From the NCBI GenBank assembly GCA_905221615.1, contig CAJNDT010006135.1, positions 1,712,089 through 1,776,088 of the forward strand: a DNA stretch of 64,000 nucleotides. Direction: 5' to 3'. This DNA comes from Symbiodinium sp. CCMP2592. Taxonomy: Eukaryota; Sar; Dinophyceae; Suessiales; Symbiodiniaceae. Numbering within the stretch: position 1 is the first letter of the stretch; each line of letters begins with the position of its first letter. Below the pieces are notes generated by a model. That model was not told the origin of the DNA. It was given only the letters and a program-made list of their open reading frames with translations, and did not search any database. Below, piece by piece: positions 38,546 through 46,224 of this stretch. A program made the position numbers and the translations under genes.

Positions 38546-38580
38546 ACCCTAGGGATCAAGATAGCCCAAAAGCCTTATAT
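38546..38580. mobile_element. left part of the family F element targeted by the big transposon
   Basis: ACCCTAGGGATCAAGATAGC and CCAAAAGCCTTATAT. The element continues at 45442 with CCTTATATAGTATGGTC. The undisturbed order is seen in the next copy at 45652. Confidence 0.9.
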
Positions 38581-38640
38581 TTAGGTGCTCCAAGAAGCCC
38601 GGTGCTAAACCCCCCCAAAGTTCCACCTCGTACATTGTTT
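38581..38640. repeat. left terminal inverted repeat
   Basis: TTAGGTGCTCCAAGAAGCCC, then GGTGCTAAACCCCCCC and CTCGTACATTGTTT. One A shorter than the right repeat after AAGAA. Confidence 0.9.
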
Positions 38641-38800
38641 GGGATGCTGCAAACATTGTTTAATTGTTTCAAACATTGTTTAAATGTTTCGAAAATTGTT
38701 TGAAATATTCTTCAAATGTTTCGAAAATTGTTGGAAATATTCTTTAAATTGTTTGAAATATTCTTTAAATTGTTTGAAACATTCTTTACAGTTTTCCACA
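38641..38800. repeat. left subterminal AT-rich repeats
   Basis: About eight units of TTGTTTGAAATATTC / GTTTCGAAAATTGTTTGAAA. The mirror series lies at 45190-45380. Repeated subterminal motifs are often transposase binding sites, which is an inference here. Confidence 0.8.
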
Positions 38801-39412
38801 GTTGGTTGAACAGCTCATAATGGTCATAATGGCCTTAAAATGAAAATGTCTCCGATTACCCGCATTGTCAAAGCAGGAACAGGGTGCCATGCAATCGTCA
38901 TCATCATCATCATCATCGTCATGATGGTCTGGCAGTTGATGTCTGAAGCAGACTGATTATGTGTGGCACTGGAGCAGTATTTATTCTGGCTTTCGGTTTA
39001 CTTTCTTGTGACACTTGTGCATCATGAAAGCCATAATGACGACGACAACACTTCCAATCCATGCCAATAGGCACACTACGAGTGACCATAAGTCGCCATG
39101 AGTCCATGGTAACAATGACGATAATGAAGACAATCACGGGCCCCAGGACAGTAACATTTTCAGTAAGATGAGCTTCAGGCCTTTAGCGCTAGGCTAACTT
39201 CCTAAACTAAACTCCCACTCCTACGTCTCCTCCTGCACCGAAAGCCTTGACTTCTCGACTATGGCCACACGACCACGACGCGACGCTGTTGACTTTTCTC
39301 ACGCTGCCACATCGAGTGAAATCTCAGGCACGATCAAAAATGGCAAAATGCCCGAATCCTATGAAGACCAAGCGGCAGCAAAACCAATCCAGCACCCGGC
39401 CTCAGGCCTTGT
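38801..39412. other. non-coding end of the transposon, 3-prime of the methyltransferase
   Basis: Contains a CATCAT microsatellite at 38899-38925 and related CATAATGACG-type sequence at 38915-39140. Probably trailer of the methyltransferase gene. Confidence 0.5.
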
Positions 39413-40891
39413 TCAGGAGTCCTCGTCTTCGTCCTCGTCAGCATTCTCATTTCCCGGCCTCGGGCCTTGTGTCAGCACTGACATGGCGGCCATCGCCGTC
39501 GCGACAGACGAGGCGCTGGTCTTCAACCCGACGGGACGCCAGTGCACCGCGGCAAGGCATGCCTGAACCACGGCCATGACGACGGGAAGCGCCATGCCGT
39601 TTCCAGCTAAGTCTTGGAGAAAAGAGTCTGTTGGGAACTTTTTCTTCTTCGACGTCACCTGGTCTGTGCTCACAACGTAGCCTTCCTGGGAAAGCATGTT
39701 CAAACAAGGTCCGATAGGATACCCTTGCATGAGAAGGGCCTCGTATCCACTCGTCAAGCGTGGACCTCCCGGAGCTAGAGGAGTCCACAACAACTGCCCC
39801 GGCAACATGGTTGGAGCCACATGCCGACCATCTGCTTGCAAGGTGCTGCTATTGGCACGGCCGAGACTTTGCGACAGGTTGCGGAAACCGCATCCGGGAG
39901 CTTCAATCTCTGAGAGCTTCAGGCAGTCCGCCTCACGTTCGGTGAGGATGGAGTACCATGGATTCTGGCTCAGCTCTTTCCGTGCAGGAGTGCCCCATCG
40001 AACGCCAAGGCTGTCGGCAAACTTCATGTGCTGATTCACCCAGTTGTTCTGAGTCTGGGACTTCTTGGACTTCTTGAGTTTTGCTTGCCGCTCTTCCATA
40101 CACTCTTTCACCGCCAAGTCGCCTTGTCCAACAAGCACTTCCGATGCACACGGTGGTGTGCGTATGCAACTGCTAACCAAGTGGCGAAACTTGTTCATGA
40201 CAACCTGGAAGGGCCGATCACGGAGATTAAGTCTGGGGCTACGGGAGTCAATGAAGAGGATGTAGACTCTACGACGATGGCATGGAAGCCCGAACTCCAA
40301 TGCGTCTGTCATCATCGGCTGGCTGTGGTACCCCAGGCTAGCGAACTCGTTCAAGCAAACCTTTAGGTTGGAGTCGTCGGTGGAGCTGAGCTGATCGCCC
40401 ATCGCGTCCACGTTTTCGTAGATCACGAAGAGAGGTCGGTGATTCCGAACGTAGCCCAAAAGGCCTTGGAAAGTCTGTGCTGAAGCACCGCGGCTGGAGT
40501 TCTGCTCGAGGACTGGCTTGTTGCTGTCGTGAGTGGGAGACGTGTGGTTCAGCTTGCTGAGGTCTTTGCAGGAGGTCCCGGCGACAAGAAGGTCGACTGA
40601 AGGAATGTCGCACCCAGCGCCATGTCGGCAGCATTTGGCCTCCTTGCAGTGCAACTGCGTGATGTCCTCGAAAATGCATTTCCCACTTGAAAAGCAGTCG
40701 CCAATATCACCACCCGCCCCAAGGGCATCAACCCGAGGAGGCCACAAGAGGCAGGTACTCTCGCGCAAGGGGCCAACGGAGAGCACCGCCTGGATCCACT
40801 GCTGCTTGTCAGCGTTACCTGGGCACATATGGCATTGGCAGAGGGCATAAGGCATAAGGCATGAGACTGGCATCAGACTTAGGACTCTCAA
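39413..40891 (-). CDS. cytosine-5 DNA methyltransferase, N-terminally incomplete
   Basis: An uninterrupted 492-codon frame. Visible class-I C5-methyltransferase blocks: DLLVAGTSCKDLSKLN at 100-115 (motif IV; Cys108 is the expected nucleophile, with TSC in place of the usual PC), LFVIYENVDAM at 154-164 (motif VI, ENV), GLPCHRRRVYILFID at 201-215 (motif VIII), GRHVAPTMLPGQ at 355-366 near the target-recognition end, and DLAGNGMALPVVMAVV at 427-442 (motif X). The tail is acidic (NENADEDEDEDS). It would transfer methyl from S-adenosylmethionine to cytosine in DNA. The usual motif I (FxGxG) is not seen. The first about 25 residues lie over a GGCATAAGG repeat and are probably not coding, so an upstream exon is likely, with an acceptor possibly near 40825. 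The nominal first codon is TTG and the first ATG is codon 7. Methyltransferases with this kind of loop are known in dinoflagellates, some carried by retrotransposons. Here the carrier has DNA-transposon ends. Confidence 0.9.
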   Translation of the reverse strand: MRVLSLMPVSCLMPYALCQCHMCPGNADKQQWIQAVLSVGPLRESTCLLWPPRVDALGAGGDIGDCFSSGKCIFEDITQLHCKEAKCCRHGAGCDIPSVDLLVAGTSCKDLSKLNHTSPTHDSNKPVLEQNSSRGASAQTFQGLLGYVRNHRPLFVIYENVDAMGDQLSSTDDSNLKVCLNEFASLGYHSQPMMTDALEFGLPCHRRRVYILFIDSRSPRLNLRDRPFQVVMNKFRHLVSSCIRTPPCASEVLVGQGDLAVKECMEERQAKLKKSKKSQTQNNWVNQHMKFADSLGVRWGTPARKELSQNPWYSILTEREADCLKLSEIEAPGCGFRNLSQSLGRANSSTLQADGRHVAPTMLPGQLLWTPLAPGGPRLTSGYEALLMQGYPIGPCLNMLSQEGYVVSTDQVTSKKKKFPTDSFLQDLAGNGMALPVVMAVVQACLAAVHWRPVGLKTSASSVATAMAAMSVLTQGPRPGNENADEDEDEDS

Positions 40892-41388
40892 GACTTAAGA
40901 CTTCAGACATATGTCACATATATATATATATATATGTACAGGATAAATATGTCATTCGACCTATGTCATTCGACCAGTATAGAACCGAGCTTTCAAACGT
41001 TGATCTCGATACCCGAGCCCGAAACCTTCTTGCAAAAACAGCTCATGCCATCTGTCACATGGTTTGCCAACCATATACCACCATATACACCACGTATGCC
41101 ATCTGCTATCCATAATATGCCACGGATATTTCTCAAATTCTGAACTCAACTTCTCAACTGTCTCAGCTGAACTAACGACTGGAAAACTTGACCTCAGAAT
41201 TCCGGATAGCATACCTGATATAACCTGCATGTGATGTCTTAAGTCTTATGTCGCAAAGTTCAGCTCACCTCTAGCAAGGATTATTGACGCAAGGGGACTG
41301 AATGATCCGAATGCATGTGTGCAAAAAAAACATCCAATAGACTCAATAGACCACTCGAAAATGAAATCAAGATGCTCTCGCAACTGTG
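40892..41388. other. probable intron or leader of the methyltransferase gene
   Basis: Holds a TA run at 40918-40936 and CATATGCCAC/GTATGCCATCTG repeats at 41085-41120. No conserved methyltransferase block (motif I) was found here on the minus strand. Confidence 0.45.
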
Positions 41389-41640
41389 CTAACGATGCAA
41401 ATGTGAGGGCGAGTTCGGTGGGATGCGGCCGTCAAGGAGGCGCTCCTCATCGCCTTCCCACCCGTCCAAAGGACTTGTGTCTGTACTCTTTGCGTTGCAA
41501 AGGCAGCACGTACAAGCCTTCGTCAAGTTGTACACTACTCGGAACTTCCCCAGAGAGCCAGCCGAGGAGCTGGGCCTTCCACACGACTCAGAGGCAGCAG
41601 GCTCAGGCGCAGGTGCTTCTGCTGCGCGTCCAAGAGCTCC
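41389..41640 (-). CDS. Cys-rich exon-like frame between transposase and methyltransferase
   Basis: A minus-strand stop-to-stop frame of 83 codons without ATG. It starts with a Pro/Ala/Ser-rich stretch (AEAPAPEPAASES), then FRVVYNLTKACTCCLCNAKS with the cysteine pattern CxCCxC, then TDTSPLDGWEGDEERLLDGR. The composition change and clustered cysteines suggest a small zinc-binding module that could be an N-terminal exon of the methyltransferase or the end of the transposase gene. No family is firmly recognised. Competing frames on the plus strand (41319-41720, 41423-41671) look less protein-like. Confidence 0.4.
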   Translation of the reverse strand, partial: GALGRAAEAPAPEPAASESCGRPSSSAGSLGKFRVVYNLTKACTCCLCNAKSTDTSPLDGWEGDEERLLDGRIPPNSPSHLHR

Positions 41641-42383
41641 TCAAGGTCCTCGTTGTTCATACAGGTCATGACAGGCGGCAAATCAGAGAGAGATGCCACC
41701 ACACATCTATCAGAATTTGAACCTCAAAGCTTCGGGAGCGCCGGGCCGAATACTTCGCTCACCGCCCACACTCTGCACCCTGGACAGACTGGGACTGTTG
41801 GCAATATTTGTGTGTGTGTGTCCGTTTCTGTTCAATGGCTTGCTCCTAATCTTTATTTGTACATTAGTTATAATACACCATGTTTGTAAGAATGTTTCTA
41901 CGGACTTTCTACGAAATGTTTCTAAGAATGTTTCTATGTTTGTAAGAATGTTTGCACGAAATATTTAAAGTAGAGAAACAACTTTTAAAGTAGAGAAACA
42001 ACTTTTAAAGTAGAGAAACAACATTTTAAAGTAGAGAAACAACTTTTAAAGTAGAGAATATACTTTCGTAAGTTGATACAAACATTCTTTTAAACTTAGA
42101 AACATTCTTTGAAATATTTGAAATATTCTTTGGTTTTATGTAAATATTTATTTGTTTGTTGTGAATATTTATTTATTTTATGGCTTGTTTGATTTAGTTT
42201 ATTTAAAAGTTTGTCTATGAATCTAAAACTTTGCTAAAGCAGCACAGGATTCAGAAAGTTAGGTTCCTCACTTGGCTGCTCCTGGCAGTTTGACGGCTGC
42301 TAAACATAGGCCGGGACTCGACTGGACTGCACAAAGACGCACCTCACATCAGGCCAACAGAAGCTTAGACACGCAGTCCGGCA
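41641..42383. other. AT-rich internal block with a 20-bp tandem repeat
   Basis: 41960-42062 holds five copies of TTTTAAAGTAGAGAAACAAC. It is surrounded by AAGAATGTTTCTACG/GAAATATTC-type motifs like those near the transposon ends. It may be an internal promoter region, an intron, or the buried end of an older element. Confidence 0.6.
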
Positions 42384-43102
42384 CTAACGAAGAGCAGACA
42401 TCACGCGCTTTTGCCGGGTGAGAAGCTGCGTCCCAAGGCCCTGGCAGTGTTTGCCCTGGGGCCTTAGGCCTCGCGTCCTAGGACTTCGCCGTCGCCGCAG
42501 CCACTCCGGTATTCGAAGCTGGCCGGACTCAAGGCCCATGGCCCAAGCCTTGGCAGCTCGGACGCAACGATGGCCAAAGGCCCTTTCACATTCATCCTGC
42601 TGCACTGTGTTGCACCAGGGCGTCCAACTCCTGCTCCGACAACCCAGCACGGTACGCTCCCAGCTGCCAACCCCCCTCGACAGGTGGAACGACCTCTTGT
42701 TGGCGCCCCAATCCTCATCGTTGAACCCGGCTACAAGCCATCGCTTCAGTCGCAAAATGCACTCGTTGTCCGAAAGGTCCGAACCTTTGTTCACTGTCTT
42801 TCGGCAAGGCAGCGCCAAGGCAGCGCTCTGCCACTGGCGTCCGCGTGTCGACCGCACAGTGCGCGCCACCCGATGTGCACACCTTCTGAGTAGATCGGTG
42901 CGATCTGAAAGGCTGGCGTCCGTCCCCAAATCGCGGCACGCTTCACATTGAGCCGCCCTGTCGTGACAGAGTCTGCACGGATTGCAGGAACCTCAGTAGA
43001 AACAACTGGCCTGAGCGGTGCTGGGCCCTGCGACGAAGACGACGGCTCCGGGCCCCGCGACGAAGACGACGGCTCGGGTGCATCAGCAGCCTTAGACTCC
43101 AC
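42384..43102 (-). pseudogene. transposase C-terminal part with Cys/His motif, frameshifted
   Basis: Two minus frames join into one protein. The first (43102 down to about 42826) has a Ser-rich linker with GPEPSSSS repeats and ends YSEGVHIGWRALCGRHADAS. The second (about 42815 down to 42384) continues PCRKTVNKGSDLSDNECILR and LKRWLVAGFNDEDWG. The break is an exact 11-bp tandem duplication, CAAGGCAGCGC at 42805-42815 and 42816-42826 on the plus strand; with one copy the frames are continuous. C-x2-H (CGRH) followed by a Cys suggests a small zinc-binding fold. I associate this block with dinoflagellate transposase-like proteins from general memory only. The nominal starts are GTG (43102) and TTG (42929). 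Confidence 0.55.
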
Positions 43103-43761
43103 ATCAACCGTCGAGTTTCATCAAGACTGCGACTACTCAATGTAATATGAATATGCTCCCTACACATAACTACACCCAGCAACCATGCGCAACAGACCAA
43201 AACCAAACTCTTGCTCCGGAGCTGAAACCCTGCATCCTATTGTACTCTTTCGAAGTCTCCTTTTGTGTGCTTTGCCCCTGTAATGAACACCGGCCCTTAC
43301 TTCAAAGTAGAGAACCCCAAACATTGCGTTGAAATCTGAATGCAACACTACCGGACACCTGCTAGACTCCTAGACTCCTAGACCCCTGGACCTAGACTCT
43401 CTTGCACCCGCGCCGCAAACTACGCGAACTGTCGCAGACCTTATATAGACCTGTGCGCTGTCAACTACGAAACGCTACAAATTGATCTTTACACTCTAGA
43501 CTCTAATCTAATCAAAAAGCCTTTGTGCCTTGTGCCTCCACAAGCCCCTACCAAGAAATCGTGAAGCTAAGTTCATACTCAACTACGTCCAACAAGCCTT
43601 GTGTCCGACTAACCATGCGTCCGCTCATTCATAGACACTCGCCGAATGGCTTGGCCTAAGCCTGGACTGCTAAGTTAAGCCAACTCAGTTAGGCTCCAAG
43701 TGGAAAGAAACGAAAGGCTCAAGGCTTGAGGCTTTTCATAAGGGTAAGAACAAGGCTTGGC
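43103..43761. other. non-coding gap within the transposase region
   Basis: CTAGACTCCTAGACTCCTAG low complexity at 43363-43400. No frame continues either neighbour, so it is an intron, a spacer between two genes, or a decayed part. Confidence 0.4.
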
Positions 43762-44958
43762 TTATGAATGCCCAAGACTGGTATTCAGAGATACAGCCAC
43801 TGACAACCCCTGAGCCACGGAGCTTCCAGCTCCTCTCCGATGGCCAAAGCTGAGAACACCTGTTGTAGTACGTTTCCCTGCAGCGATGGTGGGGTCGACG
43901 TATACCTCTTTGAGCTGTCGCTGCAACCTTTCTCGGATCGATGCTCCATCTCCGACGTCGCTCAATGGGAATGAAATGTTCTCAATGAGGATGGCCTGGA
44001 GCGAGAGGTGGTAGTGCATAGTGACGGTTGCGATCTGCTCCTCAGACATGCCGTTCAACGTCTCGTTCACGGATTCCAGGGCACTCTTGGTCGTCTGGAA
44101 GTTGTAATTGGCGCCACCGGACACCGACGGAGACACGATGTAGATCTCCCCCCATCCATGCATGCCACACCTGGAGGAAGCTGCGCGCACAAGCGCCTCA
44201 GCAACTTCAGGTTAGCAGGGCCTGCATCGCATGTCACCAGTACAGCACGAAATTTTGCATTGACCGATGTCACACCCGGCCAAAGACCAGCCGGGCCTGC
44301 AGATAAGACCGGCCACATGGCAACAGCTTTCTTGGTTGGCAAAACACAAGGTGCACGGACAGCATCGGTATCAACAACTTCACCATGACCACAATATGTA
44401 ATCTGACCGTGGGATGCTAGCACTGACCAGGCTGCTTCTCCATGAACCCCCATATTTAGGTCAAGCTCTGTCTCGTCGAACATAAGGTTGATCAACGCGA
44501 AATCGAGAGGGTCATCTTTACACAGATGCTGCAGCCGTTGAAGGTTCCGAGAAATATATTGGTTTTGCCCCTCTTCGATGCACTCTGCGACGAACAACCT
44601 GGCAGACAAAGTAGATCCAGAACCTGTCCACCTGACTTGCCGCATCACGTAAACTCATACTACCCGGTGTGAAACCTGCTCTCAAAATGGCATCTGGGGT
44701 CCATTTCCTCCAACCACCTTTGCCTTTGGCCTCCGAACGGCTGTCACGGCTGCTCACTGGCATGATATGATCCTCTGTTCGTCCTCTCCCAGATCTGTTA
44801 GCAGACTGAGCTTGCAAACGAAACGAGTCTTCAACCGTGCTGCTTCGTCGCTGTGCACCTTCTGCGCGGCGCAAACGCACGCGGCCTGCGTTCGGGGCAG
44901 CATGACCTTGGTGGCCTTGGTGCCGCCGGGCGATCCCTGCTAATTGCTGCAGGTTCAT
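43762..44958 (-). pseudogene. DDE-type transposase, N-terminal and catalytic part, two frameshifts
   Basis: Starts at a true ATG (44958). Segment 1 (to about 44628) has a basic tail and then KWTPDAILRAGFTPGSMSLR, a helix-rich block that may bind DNA. Segment 2 (about 44628 to 44206) carries LINLMFDETELDLNM (Asp at 44475-44477) and FRAVLVTCDAGPANLK (Asp at 44226-44228), which fit the first two acidic residues on the first and fourth strands of an RNase H-like DDE fold. Segment 3 (to 43762) continues VRAASSRCGMHGWGEIYIVS, with a CxxH pair after the second Asp as in several DDE families, followed by a long helical part. The third acidic residue cannot be fixed. Joining needs a one-base change at each of the two borders, so this copy is probably inactive unless the borders are unusual introns. 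Confidence 0.65.
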
Positions 44959-45120
44959 TACAGCAACACAATGATGCGCTGATCATGTTTGAGCCACATG
45001 CACAAGTTGTCACACAAGAGAACACGGGCGGTGAGAGTCCAGAACAAACAGCACATGCAGTCAGCAGCCCCGATAGCGTAAGCTCAATGCTCTCATAAGC
45101 AGTTCCTCGTTACTAAATCA

Positions 45121-45381
45121 TTATACATTATTTAAGTTAATCAACATTTCGAGCAGCCGTTGAAACCCCAACAGAAGTGGTTCAAATCGGTGCAAACCAT
45201 TCGTGCAACATTTGAAGAATATTTCAAACAATTGTCGAAACATTTAAAGAATATTTCAAACAATTGCCGAAACATTTAAGAATATTTCAAACAATTGCCG
45301 AAACATTGAAAGAATGTTTGTAACAATGTTTTCCAAAACCGAAACTTTGTAACAATGTTTGTTCGGAAACCGAAACTTTGT
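45121..45381. repeat. right subterminal AT-rich repeats
   Basis: AATATTTCAAACAATTGCCG units spaced about 39 bp (45218-45305), then two units of CCGAAACTTTGTAACAATGT at 45339 and 45370. Inverted relative to the left series. Confidence 0.8.
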
Positions 45382-45441
45382 AACAATGTTTGTACGCGAT
45401 TTTGGGGGTTAGTCGCGACCGGGCTTTCTTGGAGCACCTAA
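45382..45441. repeat. right terminal inverted repeat
   Basis: CAATGTTTGTACGCGATTTT, GGGGGTTAGTCGCGACC, GGGCTTTCTTGGAGCACCTAA, complementary to the left end with a few small gaps. Confidence 0.9.
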
Positions 45442-46015
45442 CCTTATATAGTATGGTCTTTGGGCCGAAAAGCCTTAACATATGAGTCCTTATAGATCCC
45501 TAAACCCTATAGATCCCTTTAAAGGACCCCTTACAGATCCCTTTAAAGGAAACTCCAGAAAGTTGGAATATGGATTAATGGTAGGATCCCCTATAATTTA
45601 CCGTAAAGGGGTTACGATAATGATATTCCAACTTTCTGGCTTCTACTGTACCCTAGGGATCAAGATAGCCCAAAAGCCTTATATAGTATGGTCTTTGGGC
45701 CCAAAAGCCTTAACATATGAGTCCTTATAGATCCCTAGACCCTATAGATCCCTTTAAAGGACCCCTTACAGATCCCTTTAAAGGAAACTCCAGAAAGTTG
45801 GAATATGGATTAATGGTAGGATCCCCTATAATTTACCGTAAAGGGGTTACGATAATGATATTCCAACTTTCTGGCTTCTACTGTACCCTAGGGATCAAGA
45901 TAGCCCAAAAGCCTTATATAGTATGGTCTTTGGGCCCAAAAGCCTTAACATATGAGTCCTTAGATCCCTGAACCCTATAGATCCCTTTAAAGGACCCCTT
46001 ACAGATCCCTTTTCA
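45442..46015. repeat. 235-bp tandem duplication of an F-B-F composite
   Basis: ATGAGTCCTTATAGATCCCT begins at 45482 and 45717 with nearly identical sequence for 235 bp, and a third partial unit begins at 45952. Each unit is a family F tail, AGATCCCTTTAAAGG units, a full family B hairpin (45546-45650, 45778-45885) and the next family F head. The two 82-84 codon plus-strand frames here are products of the duplication and not genes. Confidence 0.9.
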
Positions 46016-46224
46016 GGAATCGTATAGGAGTCCTTCGCTCCCTTGGGGCAGACGATACCGGAGCCGTCAAACTTCGCCGGAAATCGTTGGTAAAACTGTC
46101 CTAAACCCTCACTGGCCCAAAACCTAAGGGAATAAAAGTTGAAACTGTAAGAACCGACTACCTTATAAGAACCCCCAAAGTTAAAAAGTTGAGTTTACAG
46201 CCAATAAGAACCCTAAACTCTAAA
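46016..46224. other. spacer
   Basis: Mixed sequence between the duplication and the following exon-like island. Nothing recognised. Confidence 0.3.

Follow-up and report, generated by a model that had tools for sequence, protein, structure and literature searches.

A short transposon of Symbiodinium, probably derived from giant inverted-repeat elements with a methyltransferase gene at one end

Transposons are usually the victims of DNA methylation. The question here is whether a cut-and-paste transposon may carry a cytosine methyltransferase of its own. The locus that poses it lies in a 64,000-nucleotide stretch of DNA from Symbiodinium sp. CCMP2592 (C5273:1712089-1776088, the whole of which we call the window), in an assembly of 1.098 Gb and 5,383 contigs; the strain is named S. 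tridacnidorum in the available text of PMC8045281. An earlier reading of the window, made from its letters alone (the sequence-only reading), had claimed such a transposon at 38573-45449. We find that the window element is, very probably, a recently mobilised, non-autonomous derivative produced by internal deletion from giant terminal inverted repeat (TIR) transposons of about 22-25 kb in Symbiodinium. The giant elements themselves suggest that a DNMT5-type methyltransferase gene regularly sits at one end of DNA transposons of this kind.

The window element spans 38581-45441 (6,861 bp), the wider range counting both target site duplications. Its TIRs (TTAGGTGCTCCAAGAA) are identical over 16 bp and, after a one-base indel, match again through GCCCGGT, with AT-rich subterminal repeats in inverted arrangement inside both, while the 8-bp duplication CCTTATAT is exact on the two sides. 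The joined flanks match a sister repeat unit at 45649-45884 with 99.2% identity in an ungapped alignment of 236 bp (36 bp to the left and 200 bp to the right of the junction), and further repeat units, e.g., 45884-46019 at 95.7%, cross the insertion junction as well. The TIRs, the duplication, and the empty site reported by the sequence-only reading are therefore all verified. The left 120 bp of the element match nine places in the genome, namely the window, five full-length copies (98.7-99.1%), a 619-bp derivative (L014), a partial match (L015), and a giant relative on contig C1503. Perfect 8-bp duplications flank all seven window-family insertions that have both ends (CCTTATAT, ATTTAGGG, ATAAAGGG, ACTTTAAG, GTTTAGGG, GTTTAGGG, and CCCTAAGA), which excludes chance inverted repeats as the source of the ends. 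The duplication, the empty site, and the several copies support the view that this is a TIR cut-and-paste DNA transposon. Since the six long copies differ from each other by merely 12-27 substitutions per 6.9 kb, they have moved recently. The sequence-only reading proposed to ask whether full-length copies with 8-bp duplications hold the methyltransferase and named its lack in all other copies as the sign of a one-off capture; the open reading frame (ORF) is present in 6/6 long copies, and L014 is an internal-deletion derivative that lacks it. As a separate observation, AGGG or CCCT occurs within five of the seven duplications, two of which are GTTTAGGG beside TTTAGGG-like repeats, so a target-site preference for such sequence is possible.

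The relative on C1503, the only one read from end to end, is far larger. It occupies C1503:11732-37100 (25,369 bp), has TTAGGTGTTTTTAGAAAGCCCGG and TTGAGTGTTTTTAAAAGCCCGG as its ends, and is flanked on both sides by the duplication CTTTAAGG. Its genes follow one another on one strand in the order TIR, transposase, DSPc phosphatase, ankyrin and unknown ORFs, a "third ORF," a two-exon methyltransferase, and TIR. The transposase ORF has 409 residues. Among the cargo, Pfam recognizes the DSPc phosphatase (9e-9) and ankyrin repeats (7e-9), several further ORFs having no match above the cut-off. The methyltransferase contains motif I, its exon 1 ending in TTGCGAGA before a GC donor and its exon 2 following a CAG acceptor, GC-AG splice sites that are predicted from sequence alone. 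When the window element is aligned to C1503, it matches in blocks, with ~9.6 and ~9.2 kb missing. Between the window family and C1503, Ka/Ks (omega), computed with our own script using NG86-type counts, is 0.29 for methyltransferase exon 2 (463 codons) and 0.28 for the shared part of the transposase (269 codons); the two genes are under similar constraint. The DSPc gene (L019:6535-8744), which comes after the transposase in C1503, is fused to it in a gene model of Effrenium voratum (P0100).

Set against this relative, the window copy is much reduced. Its methyltransferase ORF (39413-40894, minus strand) matches Pfam DNA_methylase with an E value of 6.8e-17 and displays the catalytic Cys, ENV, RxR, and motif X of PF00145. 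The frame is open, as the sequence-only reading stated, yet it is not intact because it consists of exon 2 only. The S-adenosylmethionine (SAM)-binding motif I (CSGSEG), which sits in the N-terminal part of full-length relatives, was not found in the window element by a six-frame motif scan, a narrower form of which detects CSGSEG on the coding strand of C1503. Nor did tblastn with 71 relatives reveal any exon-1 match in the element, except for weak matches outside motif I (the best, P0045, covering 25 residues with an E value of 0.008), and the exon-1 remnant in the window family amounts to about the last 8 nt. With motif I missing, we rejected the window methyltransferase as an intact working enzyme. 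The frame is open in all six long copies, three of which have a C-terminal frameshift, but these copies are too young for an open frame to count as selection. As for the transposase, described earlier as DDE-like and in pieces, it is indeed broken by a 5-bp deletion at 44625 that is private to the window copy, but it has additionally been shortened by an internal deletion in all six long copies, which leaves ~265 residues. The stub stops where C1503 reads on and is followed by ~300 bp of other sequence. Half of the six long copies have the third ORF (178 aa) open; in the window copy it is broken.

Because the motif I exon is deleted and the transposase truncated, the short family is not autonomous, and SAM binding by its methyltransferase is improbable; as far as sequence can tell, the window copy probably has neither a working enzyme nor a working transposase. 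The statement that the transposon carries "its own" methyltransferase is hence true of the giant relatives and not of the window copy. Mobility of the short element would depend on the transposase of a longer relative acting in trans. A stretch at 43864-44166 has a long open frame, is present in the six long copies, and has no counterpart in C1503; it was perhaps captured or derived from an unseen parent element.

Is the methyltransferase a regular constituent of such elements? A search of the genome with the methyltransferase gave at least 90 matches. We sorted these into groups and read loci from 10 of them (window, C1503, C3780, C5001, A, B, C, D, E, and C80, with F and G left out). Methyltransferase-side ends were located where near-identical copies cease to match or by motif scan. 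A related end motif lies beyond the methyltransferase stop in 8 of the 10 groups, and the seven distances measured range from 339 to 831 bp (window, 831 bp; C1503, 814; C3780, 758; C5001, 803; B, 339; C, 725; D, 477). The tip of group E, which is ~95% like D, is identical to that of D. No end motif appears in groups A and C80 within the about 1.5 and 1.0 kb, respectively, read past the methyltransferase. Motif I is present in C1503, C3780, C5001, A, C, D, and C80 and was not seen in the group B frame. An end pattern built for the C and D tips (TTGARTGTYYYCAAGARGC) has 24 matches in the genome vs. 0 for a reversed control. For group D, only methyltransferase-side ends were detected.

Group C, read at its ends only, has identical 22-bp TIRs and matching 8-bp duplications in three of four end pairs; one end holds the transposase together with the first part of a DSPc-like sequence, and the other holds the methyltransferase. 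The pair C2735:797394-819234 delimits 21,841 bp with CCTATAGG on both sides. On C248, the outer pair delimits 59,059 bp with GCCATAGC on both sides, which becomes 21,800 bp after subtraction of an inner element of 37,251 bp that is itself flanked by GACAATCC on both sides and may hold further insertions. The fourth pair (C691:222037-243824) delimits 21,788 bp with unequal flanks (CCTATAGG and CTTTAGCC); although they are unequal, the methyltransferase-side flank equals that of C2735, and we suspect recombination or an assembly join. Because some contigs of group C have flanks in common and might be haplotigs, the seven compared copies represent about four insertions.

These ends bear on the possibility of a nested composite, in which a TIR transposon would have received the methyltransferase through the insertion of another element, e.g., a SymbioLINE-Dnmt retrotransposon. 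LINE and DIRS elements with DNMT genes are known in Symbiodinium from the accessible part of PMC5890265, and nesting does occur in this genome, one group C element lying within another, in opposite orientation, at C248:73367-132425 (L052, L037, L044, and L053), each with its own 8-bp duplication. However, the methyltransferase stands beside the end motif in the eight groups listed above and no inner ends were seen there, which is the opposite of what the sequence-only reading had named as grounds for a composite. No reverse-transcriptase motif was detected in same-strand ORFs of at least 100 aa at the loci of eight methyltransferases, and no RVT match in the scanned ORFs of the window element, L009, and C1503 (opposite-strand ORFs of C1503 excluded). 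Moreover, the C1503 gene has a predicted GC-AG intron, in contrast to the retrotransposon-borne DNMTs of Symbiodinium, which are intronless in the text consulted (PMC5890265). We therefore consider a nested composite very improbable. Two sets of more distant matches stand apart. A divergent methyltransferase relative (38%) occurs in twelve equal-score copies (C972, C1898, C5226, C3084, C1092, C1392, C1464, C1862, C2138, C2433, C5081, and C4668), eleven of which have a second part with three in-frame TAA codons. Methyltransferase-like matches of 32-33% lie within very long frames of 985-1483 aa (C3201, C5090, C3223, C5004, C1473, and C280) and are possibly the known retrotransposon DNMTs.

Which type of enzyme is it? 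Compared with solved structures, the methyltransferase profile best matches Cryptococcus Dnmt5 (5.8e-35, vs. 2e-6 for HhaI), so the enzyme appears to be DNMT5-like. Dinoflagellates have a DNMT5c that is described, in the part of PMC9998398 available, as DNMT5-like without the SNF2 ATPase; the element methyltransferases are likely of this kind. We built a tree of 59 rows, comprising 9 methyltransferases from this genome and 50 homologues of >380 aa from P0002-P0052 (P0053-P0072, shorter sequences, and group E were left out), in which two rows, own_A and P0014, are almost identical proteins. For the seven TIR-side methyltransferases, seven label changes are required, as in all 500 shuffles; some of the unnamed rows may also come from TIR elements. 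The tree does not group the TIR-borne methyltransferases as one clade, groups B and D being long rows at an unresolved fork. Hence, either the association between methyltransferase and TIRs is old and widespread, or it has arisen more than once.

The same data speak to a one-off capture of the Pack-TYPE kind, whereby a single transposon would have caught a fragment of a host methyltransferase by chance and the fragment would have no role. The window copy, an exon-2 fragment beside a transposase stub, has that appearance, and groups A and C80 allow that methyltransferases exist outside such elements. In C1503, however, the complete gene lies between paired TIRs, divergent groups share its position beside the end motif, omega since the split from C1503 is the 0.29 given above, and the seven TIR-side genes need seven label changes in the tree. 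We find a one-off capture scarcely credible.

The transposase offers a second line of classification. Its structure model has the strand-helix order of an RNase-H fold, with invariant D171 in strand 1 and D255 ending strand 4, and its fold matches include integrases, the ISCth4 transposase, and RNase HI; retroviral integrases top the list, which we read as the common RNase-H fold only. The model thus points to an RNase-H-like core. A CxxH motif after D255 is reminiscent of hAT. The fold matches listed include no hAT, KDZ, or P-element structure, and Pfam assigned no family to the transposase, neither hAT nor KDZ, among 35 homologues. Weak Pfam matches were left unused: Aconitase_B_N (best E 0.028; 3/35), Myb_DNA-bind_8 (0.036; 3/35), TNP-like_RNaseH_N (0.11; 2/35), and three more families with one member each of the 35. 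A profile search with the transposase alignment returned 49 proteins, all of the same family apart from three weak matches in last place. The 8-bp duplication agrees with hAT and with KDZ/Zisupton alike, Zisupton producing 8-bp duplications according to the portion of PMC12730594 at hand.

An element of 22-25 kb with TIRs and many genes might also be an endogenous virus-like element, a Polinton or polinton-like element whose methyltransferase would be a viral gene. Methyltransferase genes do occur in algal viruses. Polintons and their like are characterized by PolB, capsid genes, and a 6-bp duplication, while the giant elements have 8-bp duplications and, near one end, an ORF resembling a transposase. 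Neither capsid nor PolB nor packaging-ATPase families scored above the cut-off in the 17 stretches scanned, in which introns could hide genes (below it were NPV_P10, E 0.0019, and Pox_D5, 0.22), and two IMG/VR scans yielded no relative of the methyltransferase or the transposase. A viral origin is accordingly most unlikely in our view.

Beyond Symbiodinium, single gene models of E. voratum combine transposase and DSPc (P0100), or a transposase end, the third ORF, and methyltransferase pieces (P0070). An E. voratum methyltransferase (P0007) and transposase (P0078) are listed on contigs of equal size (994407), a coincidence in size only. From these gene models and this coincidence, rather than from assembled elements, the gene set of the giant elements would seem to be old. 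The broadest reading is that they form a hitherto undescribed giant cut-and-paste superfamily, in which a DNMT5-type methyltransferase is a core end gene across Symbiodiniaceae genera and maintains the element's own methylation, an epigenetic self-marking. We regard this as a serious possibility that stops somewhat short of being probable.

The Symbiodinium genome is mostly CG-methylated, according to the accessible part of PMC5890265. The methyltransferase of full elements would methylate element DNA, and hemimethylated DNA arising from replication would be a suitable substrate for a maintenance-type enzyme. Such an enzyme might restore methylation to the element once this has been excised or replicated, giving a new copy the appearance of the CG-methylated host genome and leaving the ends methylated or hemimethylated when the transposase needs them; we advance this maintenance role tentatively and with some doubt. 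Roles in avoiding silencing, in protection, and in controlling transposase access, proposed by the sequence-only reading, may be envisaged as well. CpG depletion, the one indirect sign of self-methylation that was checked, was not found in the elements: their CpG ratios (0.84 and 0.77) exceed those of their surroundings (0.52-0.58) and so lend no support to past self-methylation. This result would also fit an enzyme whose substrate is the host DNA or the target sites, or one that only binds DNA as a co-factor of transposition, and a DNMT5-like domain without the ATPase could behave unlike known DNMT5; we judge this alternative unlikely, though worth keeping in mind. Near-identical copies that lack the exon for motif I coexist within one assembled genome with relatives whose gene is complete, which makes self-methylation by a transposon testable. 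The features of the window element are collected in Table 1.

Table 1. Coordinates of the window element, its flanks, and its empty site
Feature	Position	Strand	Basis
Left 8-bp target site duplication CCTTATAT	38573..38580	.	
Left terminal inverted repeat TTAGGTGCTCCAAGAAGCCCGGT	38581..38603	+	120-bp end matches 9 genome places
Left subterminal AT-rich repeats	38640..38810	.	inverted matches to about 45190-45400, end alignment
Methyltransferase exon 2, putative DNMT5-like C5-cytosine type; GTSCKD, ENVD, RRRVY, and AGNG present, motif I exon absent	39413..40818	-	
Remnant of methyltransferase exon 1, last ~8 nt, TTGCGAGA before GC donor	41376..41383	-	L012 junction vs. C1503:34200-34330
"Third ORF," broken in window copy	42384..43117	-	~47% identity to part of E. 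voratum P0070
Open-frame stretch of ~300 bp between transposase stub and third-ORF region	43864..44166	-	no counterpart in C1503 contig
Transposase N-terminal part, ~265 residues including FDET and TCDAGPAN; 5-bp deletion at 44625	44167..44958	-	
Right subterminal repeats	45190..45400	.	inverted-repeat search, end alignment
Right terminal inverted repeat ACCGGGCTTTCTTGGAGCACCTAA	45418..45441	-	
Right 8-bp target site duplication CCTTATAT	45442..45449	.	
Sister repeat unit with empty site	45649..45884	+	99.2% to joined flanks

Enzymes acting on cytosine are known as cargo of DNMT retrotransposons, of viral mariners with a C5 methylase, and of fungal TET transposons. A nuclear eukaryotic TIR transposon with a C5 methyltransferase is not among the literature matches listed, which consist of titles and abstract starts and leave Repbase reports and most subscription journals uncovered. 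The following comparisons draw on the accessible parts of the papers cited. Mariner-1_OLpv and Mariner-2_PGv (Bao & Jurka 2013, PMC3627910) are likewise DNA transposons encoding methyltransferases, with a Cyt_C5 domain in Mariner-1_OLpv, but they reside in algal virus genomes and have TA duplications, a Mariner transposase, and a linked endonuclease, whereas the giant elements are of giant size, lie in a nuclear eukaryotic genome, and make 8-bp duplications. Fungal DNA transposons with TET/JBP genes, including KDZ elements (PMC12730594), also have a cytosine-modifying enzyme as cargo; theirs acts on 5-methylcytosine, which the methyltransferase here would add. The giant transposons of PMC6431247 are similarly large, with host-like cargo genes, but a term search of that text returned neither DNA methyltransferase cargo nor dinoflagellates. 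DNMT5c of dinoflagellates (PMC9998398) is described as DNMT5-like without SNF2, and the element methyltransferase, for its part, has Cryptococcus Dnmt5 as its best solved-structure match; transposon cargo is not mentioned in the part available. Giant elements with such a gene may be one origin of the numerous DNMT genes in dinoflagellates. A further parallel is with SymbioLINE-Dnmt and SymbioDIRS-Dnmt3 (de Mendoza et al. 2018, PMC5890265), which are likewise multicopy mobile elements of Symbiodiniaceae with a C5 methyltransferase under purifying selection. These move by RNA copying, encode a reverse transcriptase, and have Dnmt3 or orphan-type DNMTs described as intronless, those of SymbioLINE being CpG-depleted. 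The giant elements, in contrast, are not CpG-depleted; they end in TIRs, are flanked by 8-bp duplications, and encode a transposase-like protein along with a DNMT5-like methyltransferase whose gene has a predicted intron. A giant DNA transposon that keeps a methyltransferase beside its end would be a recruitment separate from that by retrotransposons, and of a maintenance-type (DNMT5-like) enzyme rather than a de novo one.

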